Part shown: piece by piece, positions 26,261 through 32,786 of the stretch
Layout of the letters: each line of letters begins with the position of its first letter
Position numbering within the stretch: the stretch's first letter is position 1
Origin: a bacterium
GTDB taxonomy: Bacteria > Patescibacteriota > Patescibacteriia > SG8-24
Reading direction: 5' to 3'
DNA length: 36,718 nucleotides
Assembly (NCBI GenBank): GCA_023246225.1
Contig: JAHFIV010000005.1
Span: forward strand, 1-36,718
Notes under the pieces: generated by a model
Database searches by the model: none
What the model was told of the DNA's origin: nothing
The model's input: only the letters and a program-made list of their open reading frames with translations
Translations under genes and position numbers: made by a program

Positions 26261-27246
26261 TCCCGCTACTGATCGCGCTCGCGGTCATCGGGATCGCGCT
26301 GCTGCTCTACTGGCTCGCCAAACGTCAAGGTGGCGGCAAAGGAAAGAGTGCGGATTCGGGAGCGTCACCGTCGAAAAAAGCGACGCCACCCACGAAAAAT
26401 CCAGCCACAGCAACACCAAATGCAATCGACGCTGCAAAAATGCGCGCGATCGAAAACGCAGGAGGTTTGCTCGCGAGAGAATTACAAAGAGTAAAGATGT
26501 GTCTCACACCAGAGATGCTCGACGTCCTCTACCGCGCGGCAACGCAAGAGGACATCCACTTCAATCTTGCGACCGAAAAAAAGAAGCAGGTGCTGCAGTA
26601 TCCCACAGCGACGATGGACATCGTGCCGGTCGATGACGCGGCGCACCTGCCACAGATCTCTCCGGATCAGATGATGCTCGACGAAGATGCGTTCTACAGC
26701 AGATTCGTCATGCGCGAACTGATCCGCCCCGAATACTTCGGTGTTACCACTACCGGTAAACGCCTGTACATCCTTCTCGACATCTCGCCATCGATGTTCG
26801 ATAACGCCGCACGTATGCCCGATGGACAACTGCGAGACACGTGGTCGCGCGGCGTTGTCGCGAGCCTACTCGTCGACGCGGTCAAAGGCGAGGCGGAGTA
26901 CTTGTTTCAAAAATTCCACGACCAGGTTCGCGACCGATTGTCGGCAGTCACGCCGCAGGAAGCGGAGCAGTTGCTTTCGCACATCGTTGAGACTGCGGAG
27001 ATCGGTGGCGGCACAAACATCGGAAACGCAGTGCGCACTGCGGTGGCGCACATCAGAGCGTGTCAAGAACAAGAGACCCGCATGAATCACATCCTCCTCA
27101 TCACCGACGGTGAGGATTTTGGTGGCCTCACCCGAGACCAGCTCGTCAAATCGCTGGGAGACGACATCCAACTTCACGTCGTCCTCATCGGAAAATCGTG
27201 GGGACCGGAGCACGTACTCTCACCCTACATCATCGCGAAGTTCTAA
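26257..27246 (+). CDS. VWA-domain protein with N-terminal membrane anchor (partner of MoxR ATPase)
   Basis: LYILLDISPSMFDNAAR (MIDAS DxSxS), GGGTNIGNAV, LLITDGEDFG; ATGA overlap with upstream gene. Confidence 0.87.
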   Translation: MIPLLIALAVIGIALLLYWLAKRQGGGKGKSADSGASPSKKATPPTKNPATATPNAIDAAKMRAIENAGGLLARELQRVKMCLTPEMLDVLYRAATQEDIHFNLATEKKKQVLQYPTATMDIVPVDDAAHLPQISPDQMMLDEDAFYSRFVMRELIRPEYFGVTTTGKRLYILLDISPSMFDNAARMPDGQLRDTWSRGVVASLLVDAVKGEAEYLFQKFHDQVRDRLSAVTPQEAEQLLSHIVETAEIGGGTNIGNAVRTAVAHIRACQEQETRMNHILLITDGEDFGGLTRDQLVKSLGDDIQLHVVLIGKSWGPEHVLSPYIIAKF

Positions 27247-27302: not shown

Positions 27303-27408
27303 TGTCATTCCGGGCCGTGACCCGGAATCCAGAAACGTAAAAAAGGATCAAACAAAATCCGTTTGGCTACTTTGTTATGTGGATTCCGGCTCGGAGGCCG
27401 GAATGACA
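27303..27408. repeat. Two-armed REP/BIME-like inverted repeat, copy R5
   Basis: TGTCATTCCGGGCCGTGACCCGGAATCCAGAAACG ... GATTCCGGCTCGGAGGCCGGAATGACA; half-copies to ~27445. Confidence 0.92.
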
Positions 27409-27494
27409 GAGAAGATGCCGGAATGACAAACGTGGGTGGAATGACAACAGGAGACCAGGTCTCTCGCATTTGTTTGCATTACCTACCTTCAAAA

Positions 27495-27829: not shown

Positions 27830-27994
27830 ATGGAGAAGAAAAAATTGATTCAATGTCCCCACTGTCAGAAATCGCAGTTCTACAGGACCGACGGGGAGTT
27901 CATGACTCACATGAACAGTTGTCCGTCTCGATATTCTGATCCTCAGAAGCGGTTTAAAGCCAGCCTGGCTTTAAAGAAAAAGAAAAATAAATAA
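27830..27994 (+). CDS. Small zinc-finger-like protein, 54 aa
   Basis: MEKKKLIQCPHCQKSQFYRTDGEFMTHMNSCPSRYSDPQKRFKASLALKKKKNK; CxxC-x18-HxxxC spacing; not in the ORF track. Confidence 0.6.
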   Translation: MEKKKLIQCPHCQKSQFYRTDGEFMTHMNSCPSRYSDPQKRFKASLALKKKKNK

Positions 27995-28057: not shown

Positions 28058-28294
28058 CTAAATGGTAGTGGAGAGGCTCTTGTGAGATTTATGCAGCGCG
28101 ACGTAAAACCATTCTTCCTTGGACTTGACCCGCTGGCTTTCGAGATAGGCCAAGACGTCGTCTTCTTTAAAACGGAGTCGGCGGCTGATGCGGTAGAACG
28201 GGATGATGCGGCTTTCCACCATACGGTAGATCGTGGTTTTAGAGACGCAGAATAGATCAGCCACATTTTCGATTGTCAGAAGTTTAATTGGCAT
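28058..28294 (-). CDS. Excisionase/AlpA-type helix-turn-helix DNA-binding protein
   Basis: LLTIENVADLFCVSKTTIYRMVESRIIPFYRISRRLRFKEDDVLAYLES. Confidence 0.88.
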   Translation of the reverse strand: MPIKLLTIENVADLFCVSKTTIYRMVESRIIPFYRISRRLRFKEDDVLAYLESQRVKSKEEWFYVALHKSHKSLSTTI

Positions 28295-28309
28295 AAAGAG
28301 GATGTTGGC

Positions 28310-28933
28310 TTATGCCTTTAACTGCCGCGCAGCGAGCCTCGTAAATGCAGTACGCATGTTATCAAGAAGCGATTGATCCTTTCGATTCAACTTTTCCGCA
28401 ACATTTTTAAGCACTTGTTGATAGTCCCTAAAAAATTCATTTGTGGAAAAGATAATTCCATTTTTTCCACCGAACAGACCAATCTTGATGCCGATATGTT
28501 CCGCACAAAATCCGTCCGGATTATTCAGAACGCCGGCAGTTCCTTTAATGCCGTATTCATGAACAAGGCCACATCGCACGGCGCTATAAATACCTTTAAT
28601 GGTTGGTCTGGGGCCGTCCTCTAAAACGATTTTTCTATCAACCTCTGTATATTCGGCCGGAAAATTTTTTATCGCCTCAGTAAAATTATTCTTCGCTTCA
28701 TCTGTGATTCCCGCATTACCCGTGAAAAGACCGCCAAGAAATTCGGTGTACGAAACGAGGCCTAACGCAACCAAATAGTTTGCTTGGCCCTTAATACCGT
28801 TTTCGATATCTTTGCATGTCCAATTGCTAAATTGGTCGAAGGCCTCGATAGCTTCTTGATCGGTCATATGCAACTCTCTCTCAATTATGGAAACGATTTT
28901 GCCCCAGTTATCGTCTATCAGGATACTGCTCAT
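28310..28933 (-). CDS. Hypothetical protein with HEPN-like Rx4H motif
   Basis: YLVALGLVSYTEFLGGLF ... GIYSAVRCGLVHEYGIKG; overlaps the upstream gene end. Confidence 0.75.
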   Translation of the reverse strand: MSSILIDDNWGKIVSIIERELHMTDQEAIEAFDQFSNWTCKDIENGIKGQANYLVALGLVSYTEFLGGLFTGNAGITDEAKNNFTEAIKNFPAEYTEVDRKIVLEDGPRPTIKGIYSAVRCGLVHEYGIKGTAGVLNNPDGFCAEHIGIKIGLFGGKNGIIFSTNEFFRDYQQVLKNVAEKLNRKDQSLLDNMRTAFTRLAARQLKA

Positions 28934-29672
28934 GAAGCCTTTTGTTCCCATCCAACCCTTGTTCTATCAATTCTTCAATCATATTAGCTTCGTGGTCACT
29001 AATTTTTTTGCTTTCCAGCAATCTCTTTTTCATTTCCCTAAGCTGTTCCGCTTCTAGTTTGACATCCTTCAGAGATAAAAGAGTCAAAACAGTTTTTACT
29101 AAATCTCCCTTGTCAAACCCAGTAGATTCTTTATTTGCATGCGATAAACTGCTTAAAATTACCCATGCGTGCTGCTCATCACTGGTTTGAAGTTTGTCGC
29201 CCAAAGTCATCCAAGTCATGAGACCTATGGATAAATATCGGCTAATAATTTTATCAAAATTCGCATTTTCTTCTTCGGTAAGAGAACCATTCTTTTTTGC
29301 AAAATTTTTCGTGTACTCAATGATATTATGATATATCGTTAAAACTCTCTCCTCCAGCTCACTGTCGTTCGGCAATACTGAATTATTGTAACCATCTTTG
29401 GCTATCTCACTGATGTCCTTACTTGCGCTCGATACATCAAATTGATTGGTAAAAAAATCGGAGTGCATATACTTCTCCAAGTTTTCTAGCTTCTCCACGA
29501 TTTCGTTACGTTCGCTGAGGTCCTTATTGGTCGCAATTTGTATTTCTAAAGCTGGCACGTCCTCCCCGAGGATTTGTCTGATAAATAAAATTTGTTGATA
29601 TCTTCCAACAAAAATATTATCGATTTTTTCTTCTTTTTTCTTTTTGAAAAAATTAAATAGTGCCATGATCAA
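28908..29672 (-). CDS. Hypothetical mostly helical protein, 254 aa (start may be the second Met)
   Basis: Long ORF, lysine-rich N-terminus MALFNFFKKKKEEK; overlaps both neighbouring genes. Confidence 0.75.
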   Translation of the reverse strand: MIMALFNFFKKKKEEKIDNIFVGRYQQILFIRQILGEDVPALEIQIATNKDLSERNEIVEKLENLEKYMHSDFFTNQFDVSSASKDISEIAKDGYNNSVLPNDSELEERVLTIYHNIIEYTKNFAKKNGSLTEEENANFDKIISRYLSIGLMTWMTLGDKLQTSDEQHAWVILSSLSHANKESTGFDKGDLVKTVLTLLSLKDVKLEAEQLREMKKRLLESKKISDHEANMIEELIEQGLDGNKRLHEQYPDRR

Positions 29673-30001
29673 AATATTATTTTAGTAGTCCAACCCTTCA
29701 AAAATAAAGATGCCAATACAGCGATAATGGACGCCACGATTGACGTTAGGAGGGACAACACCCATGGTCTCCAGTTACCATTTGGCACCCAGGAGATTTT
29801 TTGATGTTCCTCGTCCTCCATCTTAAGACGGGCTGTCTCTATCTCTGCAACGAACTTTTCGCGCAACCTCTCTTCAGCCTTAGCGCGCTGGCCGGAATAA
29901 GCAAGACCGTTAGAAGCAAAAGTTTCTTGCAGTGCTTCAAGCGCCTCTTTTTCTTCCTTACGTTTTTGTCTTTCCCAAACTTCAAATTCTTTTCTAATCA
30001 T
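29669..30001 (-). CDS. Hypothetical coiled-coil + C-terminal TM protein, 110 aa
   Basis: Charged helical N-terminus then WRPWVLSLLTSIVASIIAVLASLFLKGW; overlaps the next ORF start. Confidence 0.72.
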   Translation of the reverse strand: MIRKEFEVWERQKRKEEKEALEALQETFASNGLAYSGQRAKAEERLREKFVAEIETARLKMEDEEHQKISWVPNGNWRPWVLSLLTSIVASIIAVLASLFLKGWTTKIIF

Positions 30002-30014
30002 ATGTTAATACCTT

Positions 30015-30049
30015 AGGCACCCGGATCTCCCGGTAAGAAATTGTCGTGG
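30015..30049. repeat. Direct repeat copy 1 (att-like), 30/35 identical to the tRNA-Ser 3' flank
   Basis: AGGCACCCGGATCTCCCGGTAAGAAATTGTCGTGG. Confidence 0.8.
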
Positions 30050-30161
30050 GGCGGGTCACCCACGTTCAGAGCCACTCAGTTGGTGTATTGAGAGCTTCCT
30101 CGTGAGAGGGTCGATCACGGAGCGAACTTAGGGCAAGCGAGTCGGATAATAATCTACTTAT

Positions 30162-30569
30162 CTAGGTTTTCTTTTTAGCGCTACCAAAAATAATATAGAG
30201 CAGGATTCTGTAATAAAGAATGTCTGAAATGAGAAAAAATAGTACTTCATTCACGATAACAACAATGAGACCGCTGAGTTTAGCGCTTGAAATGCATTCC
30301 GCATAGTTAGCTCGATTTTTTTCATAATCCTGATCTGATTCCCGGATTAGCATGGGCGAGCCGCCATTTGAATAATTAACCAAAAAAACATTGTAACATT
30401 GATCAAATTCAGAAACCGCAACTTTCATCCAAGTAACTGCCGGAATTATGATGCAAAATAAAATAAAAATAACTTTAGCCAGCCTATGCCACCACTTATC
30501 AACTGTCTCTTTTTGATAGGGAAACAACCGATCGAGATATTTTTGTGACAGCTTAAACATAGATAGCAA
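30162..30569 (-). CDS. Hypothetical two-TM membrane protein, 135 aa
   Basis: VIFILFCIIIPAVTWM and LSGLIVVIVNEVLFFLISDILYYRILLYIIF helices. Confidence 0.65.
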   Translation of the reverse strand: MLSMFKLSQKYLDRLFPYQKETVDKWWHRLAKVIFILFCIIIPAVTWMKVAVSEFDQCYNVFLVNYSNGGSPMLIRESDQDYEKNRANYAECISSAKLSGLIVVIVNEVLFFLISDILYYRILLYIIFGSAKKKT

Positions 30570-30662
30570 GTTAAATTATAGCTGATAATGCAGTAATAAA
30601 AAATGGTTTGTAATGAAACCTTAATTAATAGGAACACCAATTATGAATAAGGGGTGATCTTA

Positions 30663-31592
30663 TTACTCTAGGCCATCATGTTCTTTCTCCGTGTCGAATT
30701 CGATCAAAAGTTCTTCCCCGAGTTTGGACAAACTTAATATCTTTGGCTTAAGCTGCCTCACTCGGTTACGAATATCCATCCAAAAAACAGAATCAATGTC
30801 TAAATTTTTGTGATACCGGTGCCAAAGAATAATGTTCAAAAAATCCCAGTGGGCAGAAACAGTCATTCCGAATAGCGCCAAAATCTTCTTTGCTTCAAAT
30901 CCAGGGCCGTATTTCACGAAAAATTTCTGACGTTCAGTCCCTGACTTACCCGCAGTCCCATAAAATTGGGCACCCCACGCACTTGCATGTGCAGCCTTAC
31001 TAAGTTTTTGAAACGAATCCTTAATTGATTTCACGCCGTGCTTCTTCAAGTCATAATCTATTGCCGCCTCACTAAAACTTTTTTTAAAATCTGAATCCTG
31101 TTGATAGGATGTATCACTCTCCTTAATGAATCCGGAAACTAGGTGCGGATTAAAATGCAAGTAATAAATCATGTTTATGTCGCTCAAAACACCGCGCAGC
31201 AAAATAAAAGCATCACCATAGAGACCCCTCTCTGTTAAAAGAAAAATACTTTCTATGTGTTGTATGGAGCGGCTTAAAAGTAAAAGTAGGGCCTTATTAA
31301 ATTCTTTATCGTACCCTTTCTCAAATTCTTTTATTAATTCATCCTTTACTGCCAAAATTTCTTTAAGAGACTCGGAATGCAGCCCATAAAATGGGAAGAA
31401 AGTTTCTCGCGACTCACGTTGAATTTGATGGTAGATTTTATCAAAAATCAGTTTTCCTTGCGCCCATCGGCCAAGCAAAAGTATTCGTGATTTTATAATA
31501 ACCAATTTGTAGAAATTCTCTAGGAGATTGCTTTTCTTCATTTGAGAAAAATTAGTGTCCTCGAGCCCCTCCGATAAGCATAGCGCTGCCAC
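30663..31592 (-). CDS. Hypothetical protein, DUF5677-like
   Basis: LLLSRSIQHIESIFLLTERGLYGDAFILLRGVLSDINMIYYLHFNP ... FQKLSKAAHAS resembles that family; start may be the internal Met (MKKSNLLEN). Confidence 0.65.
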   Translation of the reverse strand: MAALCLSEGLEDTNFSQMKKSNLLENFYKLVIIKSRILLLGRWAQGKLIFDKIYHQIQRESRETFFPFYGLHSESLKEILAVKDELIKEFEKGYDKEFNKALLLLLSRSIQHIESIFLLTERGLYGDAFILLRGVLSDINMIYYLHFNPHLVSGFIKESDTSYQQDSDFKKSFSEAAIDYDLKKHGVKSIKDSFQKLSKAAHASAWGAQFYGTAGKSGTERQKFFVKYGPGFEAKKILALFGMTVSAHWDFLNIILWHRYHKNLDIDSVFWMDIRNRVRQLKPKILSLSKLGEELLIEFDTEKEHDGLE

Positions 31593-31692
31593 TTAATTTA
31601 CAGAAGGTGGGCCAAGGCCACGAACGATAAAAACGGCCTTCCAGCCGTTTTCATCTTGGCGACAAGCACCTATCGACAGCCGTGCGCTATAT

Positions 31693-31727
31693 AGGCAAGC
31701 GGGTCTGCCGATAAGAAATTGTCGTGG
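31693..31727. repeat. Direct repeat copy 2 (att-like), ending at the CCA of tRNA-Ser
   Basis: AGGCAAGCGGGTCTGCCGATAAGAAATTGTCGTGG. Confidence 0.8.
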
Positions 31728-31812
31728 CGGAGAGGGGGGGATTCGAACCCCCGAAACCTTTCGGTTTACCCGCTTTCCAAGCGGGCGCACTCGACCACTA
31801 TGCGACCTCTCC
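31725..31812 (-). tRNA. tRNA-Ser(GGA), CCA encoded
   Basis: Minus strand GGAGAGGTCGCATAGTGGTCGAGTGCGCCCGCTTGGAAAGCGGGTAAACC...GGGGGTTCGAATCCCCCCCTCTCCGCCA; anticodon loop TTGGAAA; long variable arm. Confidence 0.95.
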
Positions 31813-32253: not shown

Positions 32254-32661
32254 CTAGTGTTCCTGGCTGTTCGGAAGAACGTACTCGTTCTTCACTGGGT
32301 CGAACCTGCGCGCGCGGATCGCGGTGCACGCGGCCTGCGTGAGGCCGACCTCGGCGTAAGCGCTCGCCCAGTCGTTCCCGACCACCTGAACGCGGTTGTA
32401 CATGTTCGAGATGTGGACGAGGTGTCCGTAGAACTCGTTCGTCCAGTAGATGCCGTCCGAACGCTCCTCGTTCGACACCGACACATTGTGGAGCTCCCAG
32501 CAACGGAACGGCTTGCCGGTGTTGTCCATTTGGACGATCACCCAGTCGGCACCGAACGACTGCGCGGTGCAGGATGAACATCCACGATTGAAACCCGCGC
32601 ATCCGAACAGGAGCGCGGTGAACGCGATGAACAGGATGCGGGAAATGAGCGACGTCTTCAT
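32254..32661 (-). CDS. Putative lipoprotein, cysteine-rich N-terminus
   Basis: MKTSLISRILFIAFTALLFGCAGFNRGCSSC: signal peptide with LFGC lipobox; start at internal Met. Confidence 0.72.
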   Translation of the reverse strand: MKTSLISRILFIAFTALLFGCAGFNRGCSSCTAQSFGADWVIVQMDNTGKPFRCWELHNVSVSNEERSDGIYWTNEFYGHLVHISNMYNRVQVVGNDWASAYAEVGLTQAACTAIRARRFDPVKNEYVLPNSQEH

Positions 32662-32786
32662 GATCTCCTCCTTGTCCGATGATTTCACCTTGAGCATCGA
32701 TCGAACAGGCCAACCTCACACTTATACACCAACTTTGTCAAGCCAAGCTGGCGCACCATACCCACTCTATGCTAAAATGGCGGCGT

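Follow-up and report, generated by a model that had tools for sequence, protein, structure and literature searches.

A HEPN-like putative RNase gene with locus-specific partners in a candidate tRNA-Ser island of a Patescibacteria genome

Four compact minus-strand genes (positions 30001 to 28058) in an AT-rich part of a Patescibacteria contig raise the question of whether they form a conserved defence system or whether only one of them belongs to a wider family. The window (i.e. the whole stretch of 36,718 nucleotides that was analysed) is an entire contig, C46, of a 1.12-Mb genome from a reduced-genome lineage.

Gene layout and composition of the locus

The locus has a GC content of 0.37–0.44 at about 28.0–31.5 kb as compared to 0.50–0.60 in the flanks. 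The low-GC stretch reaches ~31.6 kb and, beyond the four-gene cassette, contains two further genes and a tRNA-Ser (GGA) gene (31725–31812, minus strand; ARAGORN and Rfam RF00005) that marks the edge of the AT-rich island. It lies between a lipoprotein-like gene (32254–32697) on one side and, on the other, a MoxR/vWA operon whose end is at 27246. Reading away from the tRNA-Ser on the minus strand, the order is a DUF5677-like gene, a gene for a 135-aa membrane protein and then the four cassette genes.

The first cassette ORF (29669–30001, minus strand) encodes a charged protein of 110 aa with a probable coiled coil, judged from the sequence only, in its N-terminal two thirds and a single C-terminal transmembrane (TM) segment, visible as a single pronounced hydropathy peak around residue 81 (19-residue mean of 2.45). 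The second (28908–29672, minus strand) encodes a predicted all-helical orphan of 252–254 aa and starts either with a TTG or with an ATG at 29666, which is 2 nt past the preceding stop; as listed, these two ORFs share 4 nt. The third encodes the HEPN-like putative RNase (28310–28951, minus strand; 205–213 aa), with start options at ATG 28951 (213 aa) or ATG 28933 (the start chosen in the original prediction) that give overlaps of 44 or 26 nt, respectively, with the preceding ORF. The fourth gene (28058–28294, minus strand) encodes a 78-aa helix-turn-helix (HTH) protein and begins 15 nt past the end of the HEPN-like gene. When 28310–30001 was shuffled 1000 times with dinucleotide composition kept, the longest minus-strand ORF had a mean length of 72 aa and a maximum of 171 aa, and no shuffle (0/1000) contained three ORFs of at least 110 aa, indicating that the gene layout was correctly observed. 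The original prediction of minus-strand genes overlapping end to start, in DNA more AT-rich than its flanks, was borne out: all four ORFs were present, the three larger ones overlap or abut, and the coordinates were right except for the choice of start codons. Translational coupling of these genes would make a physical complex of their products plausible.

The fourth gene had been described as an excisionase-type HTH gene, and its library matches agree with this description (Pfam HTH_17, E 2.3e-15; TIGR01764 excise, E 2.2e-13, 50 bits; PADLOC mad1, E 2.3e-8; NF047737, 44 bits). As no integrase gene was present on the contig, the HTH gene may simply be a regulator of the operon. The same HTH family contains the MADS regulator MAD1 and excisionases, but the MAD1 cut-off is 80 bits, which 28058–28294 misses by a wide margin with its 44 bits, and library scans of the island detected neither another MADS gene nor an integrase.

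Two smaller features were observed next to the cassette. A palindromic repeat of the REP/MITE kind occupies 27303–27447 (TGTCATTCCGG...GGATTCC / GGATTCCGG...GAATGACA), and a 54-aa ORF with a zinc-finger-like CxxC...H...C pattern (MEKKKLIQCPHCQKSQFYRTDGEFMTHMNSCP) lies at 27831–27994 on the plus strand, opposite in direction to the cassette.

Homologues and predicted structure of the Rx4H protein

HEPN domains are defined by an Rx4-6H motif that closes helix 3, together with an acidic helix-2 residue and inserts between helices 2 and 3 (PMC3710099). Roughly 0.2 Rx4H motifs are expected by chance per protein of the length encoded by 28310–28951 (an estimate), and a lone motif is weak evidence. 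Searches of Patescibacteria genomes (287 and later 380) produced 14 homologues besides the protein of the window, with identities of 17–32%. R126 and H131 are, apart from the start Met, the only invariant residues across the 15 aligned sequences, whilst residue 70 is Glu or Asp in 15/15 and G73 is present in 14/15. Invariance in 15 diverged homologues gives the motif a weight that a single occurrence would not carry.

An AlphaFold2 model of the protein (mean pLDDT 76, pTM 0.75) consists of helices plus a small beta hairpin. Helices 1 (residues 31–54) and 2 (58–77) are followed by an insert, helix 3 (118–131), the hairpin and helix 4 (170–189). In this predicted model, which is of moderate confidence (local pLDDT about 60–75 in the motif region), the motif residues R126 and H131 are located at the end of helix 3, whilst E70 belongs to helix 2. 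The protein is therefore like the HEPN superfamily in its all-helical domain, an Rx4H ending helix 3 and a conserved helix-2 acid, and its family shares the frequent occurrence of HEPN genes in restriction-modification (R-M) and mobile-island contexts. Differences from the superfamily are a long segment with a beta hairpin after the motif and, in the new family, a residue after the Arg that is often Cys rather than N/D/H.

Similarity to named HEPN families was not detectable in Pfam, NCBIfam or PADLOC, and 28310–28951 had no HEPN-family match in PHROG or among PDB sequences either; none of the 15 family members (0/15) matched a Pfam HEPN model. Foldseek with the predicted model gave no match at E <= 0.001. 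The non-significant list includes the HEPN structures 9bj7 (AbiV), 4nqf, 1wol and 2hsb, the last with a TM-score of 0.51 by target length. Alignment to Patescibacteria DUF4145 proteins with hhalign covered the motif region alone and was not significant (P 0.29), and PF18736 gave a single sub-threshold match in 116 genomes. AbiV, a HEPN-type abortive-infection protein, recurred among the non-significant fold matches. In AbiV, the canonical His of the motif is typically absent and another His takes its place (PMC3710099). The canonical His is invariant in the new family, for which neither the Pfam AbiV model nor a sequence search gave a match to AbiV.

Because no sequence-library or fold match was significant, the HEPN assignment rests on the motif, the acid and the topology. 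These features, in part taken from the predicted model, indicate that the third protein very probably represents a new, unnamed family of the HEPN superfamily. Membership is likely but not proven, since no profile or structure match passes its threshold. The earlier description of a HEPN-like Rx4H protein was strengthened by the invariance of the motif, the helix-2 acid and the model, in which the motif terminates helix 3. That the protein belongs to no named family was upheld by Pfam, NCBIfam, PADLOC and PHROG, whilst the fold search that might have placed it was not significant either.

The 14 homologues come from as many genera and nearly as many families, which are scattered and unrelated, and no homologue was found in the other sampled genomes of the window's own family and class. 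Such a distribution is typical of an accessory gene that spreads horizontally. Scans of the DNA of genome contigs and viral contigs produced no real close relatives, and tblastn detected no HEPN homologue in plasmids and phages. The one viral match (L060) was rejected as a chance IDDNWGKI stretch in a phage-like structural region. HEPN proteins, RNA-cutting proteins that are often deployed by bacteria against phages, are a known kind, and this HEPN-like family and the orphan partner genes are uncatalogued. The family is invisible to current defence and Pfam models, yet occurs in about 4% of sampled Patescibacteria genomes, often with restriction genes; a catalogued profile would reveal HEPN effectors in reduced-genome bacteria that annotation overlooks.

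Repeats at the tRNA-Ser gene

The tRNA-Ser end of the AT-rich stretch carries a 36-nt direct repeat with copies that are 86% identical. One copy (31692–31727, minus strand) is situated just 3' of the tRNA-Ser, overlapping the tRNA itself by 3 nt only, and the other (30014–30049, minus strand) sits 13 nt upstream of the first cassette gene; a third copy was not found. The copies enclose the genes for a 309-aa DUF5677-like protein (30663–31592, minus strand; PF18928 at E 1.9e-5, below the curated cut-off) and for the 135-aa membrane protein (30162–30569, minus strand; hydropathy of 2.39, no family), with the HEPN operon outside this interval, just beyond the distal copy. The DUF5677-like protein is a near-orphan in the phylum sample, and this pair of genes is possibly a second cassette.

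The tRNA-proximal copy is part of a hairpin of about 65–70 nt (31657–31727, minus strand; CGACAA-TTTC-TTATCG ... CGATAG-TTGTCG) that directly follows the CCA of the tRNA-Ser. The full-length trailer hairpin is kept behind tRNA-Ser in the window's own genome and in the relatives G289 (several isoacceptors) and G290; the match in G294 is weaker. Rfam gave nothing but the tRNA above the gathering score, and the hairpin could possibly be an integrase site or a tRNA processing signal. The 16-nt core of the repeat occurs three times in the genome, two of these at tRNA-Ser 3' ends (GGA here and TGA on contig C20). In G289, the repeat sequence lies behind three tRNA-Ser genes. Extra copies are present 1.7 kb downstream in the window's genome (i.e. 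the distal copy, which has the left half only and is a candidate att site) and 3.9 kb downstream of a tRNA-Ser in G289 (one copy). Conservation of the repeat and hairpin at tRNA-Ser, together with these extra downstream copies, suggests an integration site. The HEPN-like operon looks, from these sequence features, like part of a horizontally acquired island at tRNA-Ser with an att-like repeat. An empty-site comparison was sought via the flanking vWA gene, which was present in 0/9 other genomes of the family.

Other gene groups were observed at related sites. On contig C20 of the same genome, genes for a Prim-Pol protein, an HTH_17 protein and a tyrosine integrase are located directly upstream of tRNA-Ser(TGA) (L010:5569-9807); this integrase might act in trans on the island of the window. 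In G289, a YcaO plus nitroreductase fusion lies between two trailer-repeat copies (L052:8496-10682) and is a candidate azoline-peptide cassette.

Partner genes, homologue neighbourhoods and possible role

The original prediction treated the first three cassette genes as a module. The 110-aa protein gave no match of note in Pfam, PADLOC, NCBIfam or PHROG, and a search of 287 genomes returned only itself plus one match at E 9e-4. The protein of 28908–29672 had no family in the same four libraries, and its single-sequence model (pLDDT 42) was all helical and too poor to interpret. Its sole match among 380 genomes (in G225) was discarded as a chance match inside an ATP synthase gene cluster, and its PDB matches were implausible. 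No counterpart of either partner was detected beside the HEPN homologues at any of the 14 loci (blastp at 1e-3). Since both partners are orphans among the 287–380 genomes and neither accompanies any of the homologues, the comparison does not support a conserved three-gene system, and the module claim did not survive the comparison of gene neighbourhoods. On its gene content, the locus is a HEPN gene with locus-specific partners, with no demonstrated three-gene system. Membrane-linked HEPN proteins are on record (PMC3710099), and a sensor or adaptor role for the partners is speculation. A TM neighbour was present directly upstream on the same strand at 6/14 homologue loci; this frequency was not clearly above background and TM adjacency was dropped as support.

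Neighbourhoods of the homologues contain many restriction genes, with a DNA methylase, restriction enzyme or PD-(D/E)XK gene close by at 8 of the 14 loci. At L011, a type I R-M operon with genes for an HsdR-like helicase (ResIII, HSDR_N_2), a Schlafen/AlbA_2 protein and a HsdM/S fusion has the homologue as its last, overlapping gene. A methylase precedes the homologue at L033, together with a Tsp45I restriction enzyme, and at L036, together with DUF6996/6997. A Mrr-type nuclease is near the homologue at L012 and L040, a PD-(D/E)XK nuclease directly adjoins it at L012 and L039, and a DNA methylase (L032) or an HSDR_N_2 protein (L015) was found at two other loci. A total of 278 PADLOC families, many of them methylases, were matched in 80 neighbour proteins as compared to 45 in 80 control proteins, which came from the window and other loci; the 25 control families listed include no R-M methylase. 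No R-M gene was found near the window's own locus. Linkage of HEPN genes to R-M systems is a known and common theme (PMC3710099), and the frequent position of the homologues beside R-M or restriction-nuclease genes supports a defence role. This clustering, and the appearance of the locus as a mobile island, accord with the defence direction of the earlier claim. The L011 arrangement is like the PrrC-PrrI linkage of a HEPN RNase with type I R-M, but the new family has no fused ABC-ATPase domain and the copy in the window is not in an R-M operon.

Our preferred reading, on which confidence is evenly balanced, is an abortive-infection or dormancy HEPN RNase effector held in check by locus-specific partners and encoded in an operon of the tRNA-Ser island. 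In a healthy cell, the co-translated partners would keep the RNase inactive: the TM/coiled-coil protein would fix it to the membrane and the helical protein would serve as an inhibitor or sensor. The HTH protein would regulate the operon. Infection would disturb the complex and release the RNase to act, and R126 and H131 with E70 would then cleave cellular or phage RNA in a metal-independent manner. The gene layout, the invariance of the active-site residues, the helical topology as predicted, the patchy distribution and the R-M context of the homologues were observed here; we infer the RNase activity, the roles of the partners, the trigger and the defence phenotype of this model. A more specific version is improbable: a previously undescribed, membrane-anchored defence module of Patescibacteria in which a TM/coiled-coil protein is the tether and a helical protein the gate of an Rx4H HEPN RNase, the cassette having been carried into the conserved trailer hairpin of tRNA-Ser by an integrase whose gene lies elsewhere in the genome.

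The main rival is a two- or three-component toxin-antitoxin (TA)-like module that stabilises the island, in which the HEPN protein would be the toxin, the helical (or TM) protein the antitoxin and phage defence a side effect at most. The toxins of TA modules include many HEPN proteins (PMC3710099), and the tightly overlapping genes, the tRNA gene and att-like repeats at the island and an HTH gene that could autoregulate the operon would all fit. As a small operon with a HEPN-like protein, the cassette also resembles HEPN-MNT (type VII) TA loci, but a Pfam search of 28058–31592 detected no nucleotidyltransferase domain, and the neighbours include neither MNT nor another known antitoxin family. 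TA pairs normally travel together, whereas the partner here is not conserved with the homologues, which sit with R-M genes and not alone. We regard a TA-like module as unlikely.

Lower still do we rate a HEPN-fold RNA-binding or regulatory component that lacks nuclease activity and works outside defence, in a membrane-linked stress or signalling operon. The TM protein of the operon agrees with such a role. Not all HEPN families are catalytic, and stimulus-dependent RNA processing has been proposed for HEPN proteins that associate with membranes (PMC3710099). The Arg, the His and the acidic residue are, however, the best-conserved positions of the family, which fits catalysis, and the patchy distribution and defence-gene neighbours also argue against a role of this kind. 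Slightly more doubtful again is an unrelated helical protein outside the HEPN superfamily, whose R...H pair has another role, in an island whose mobile-element genes are decaying or cryptic. Both the lack of a significant sequence or fold match to HEPN and the orphan state of the partners would be expected, but three independent HEPN features (i.e. motif invariance, the helix-2 acid and a motif ending helix 3) coincide in the protein, and the ORFs are unbroken and much longer than expected by chance.

The homologue loci contain further recurrent genes. ClpP-like proteases recur as neighbours (L012 and L013), with an SDH-type relative in L036. At L013:9340-11077 and L036:5775-8413, the homologues share an operon with genes for a TM protein and a serine protease of the ClpP or SDH type, and at L036 a second small RxxxxH-motif protein is encoded between the operon genes. 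A zinc-ribbon-like family (30% identity) is located directly upstream of the homologue at L015:8246-9337 and L035:8393-9586, in two unrelated families, making the zinc-ribbon-like protein and the HEPN homologue a candidate conserved pair.
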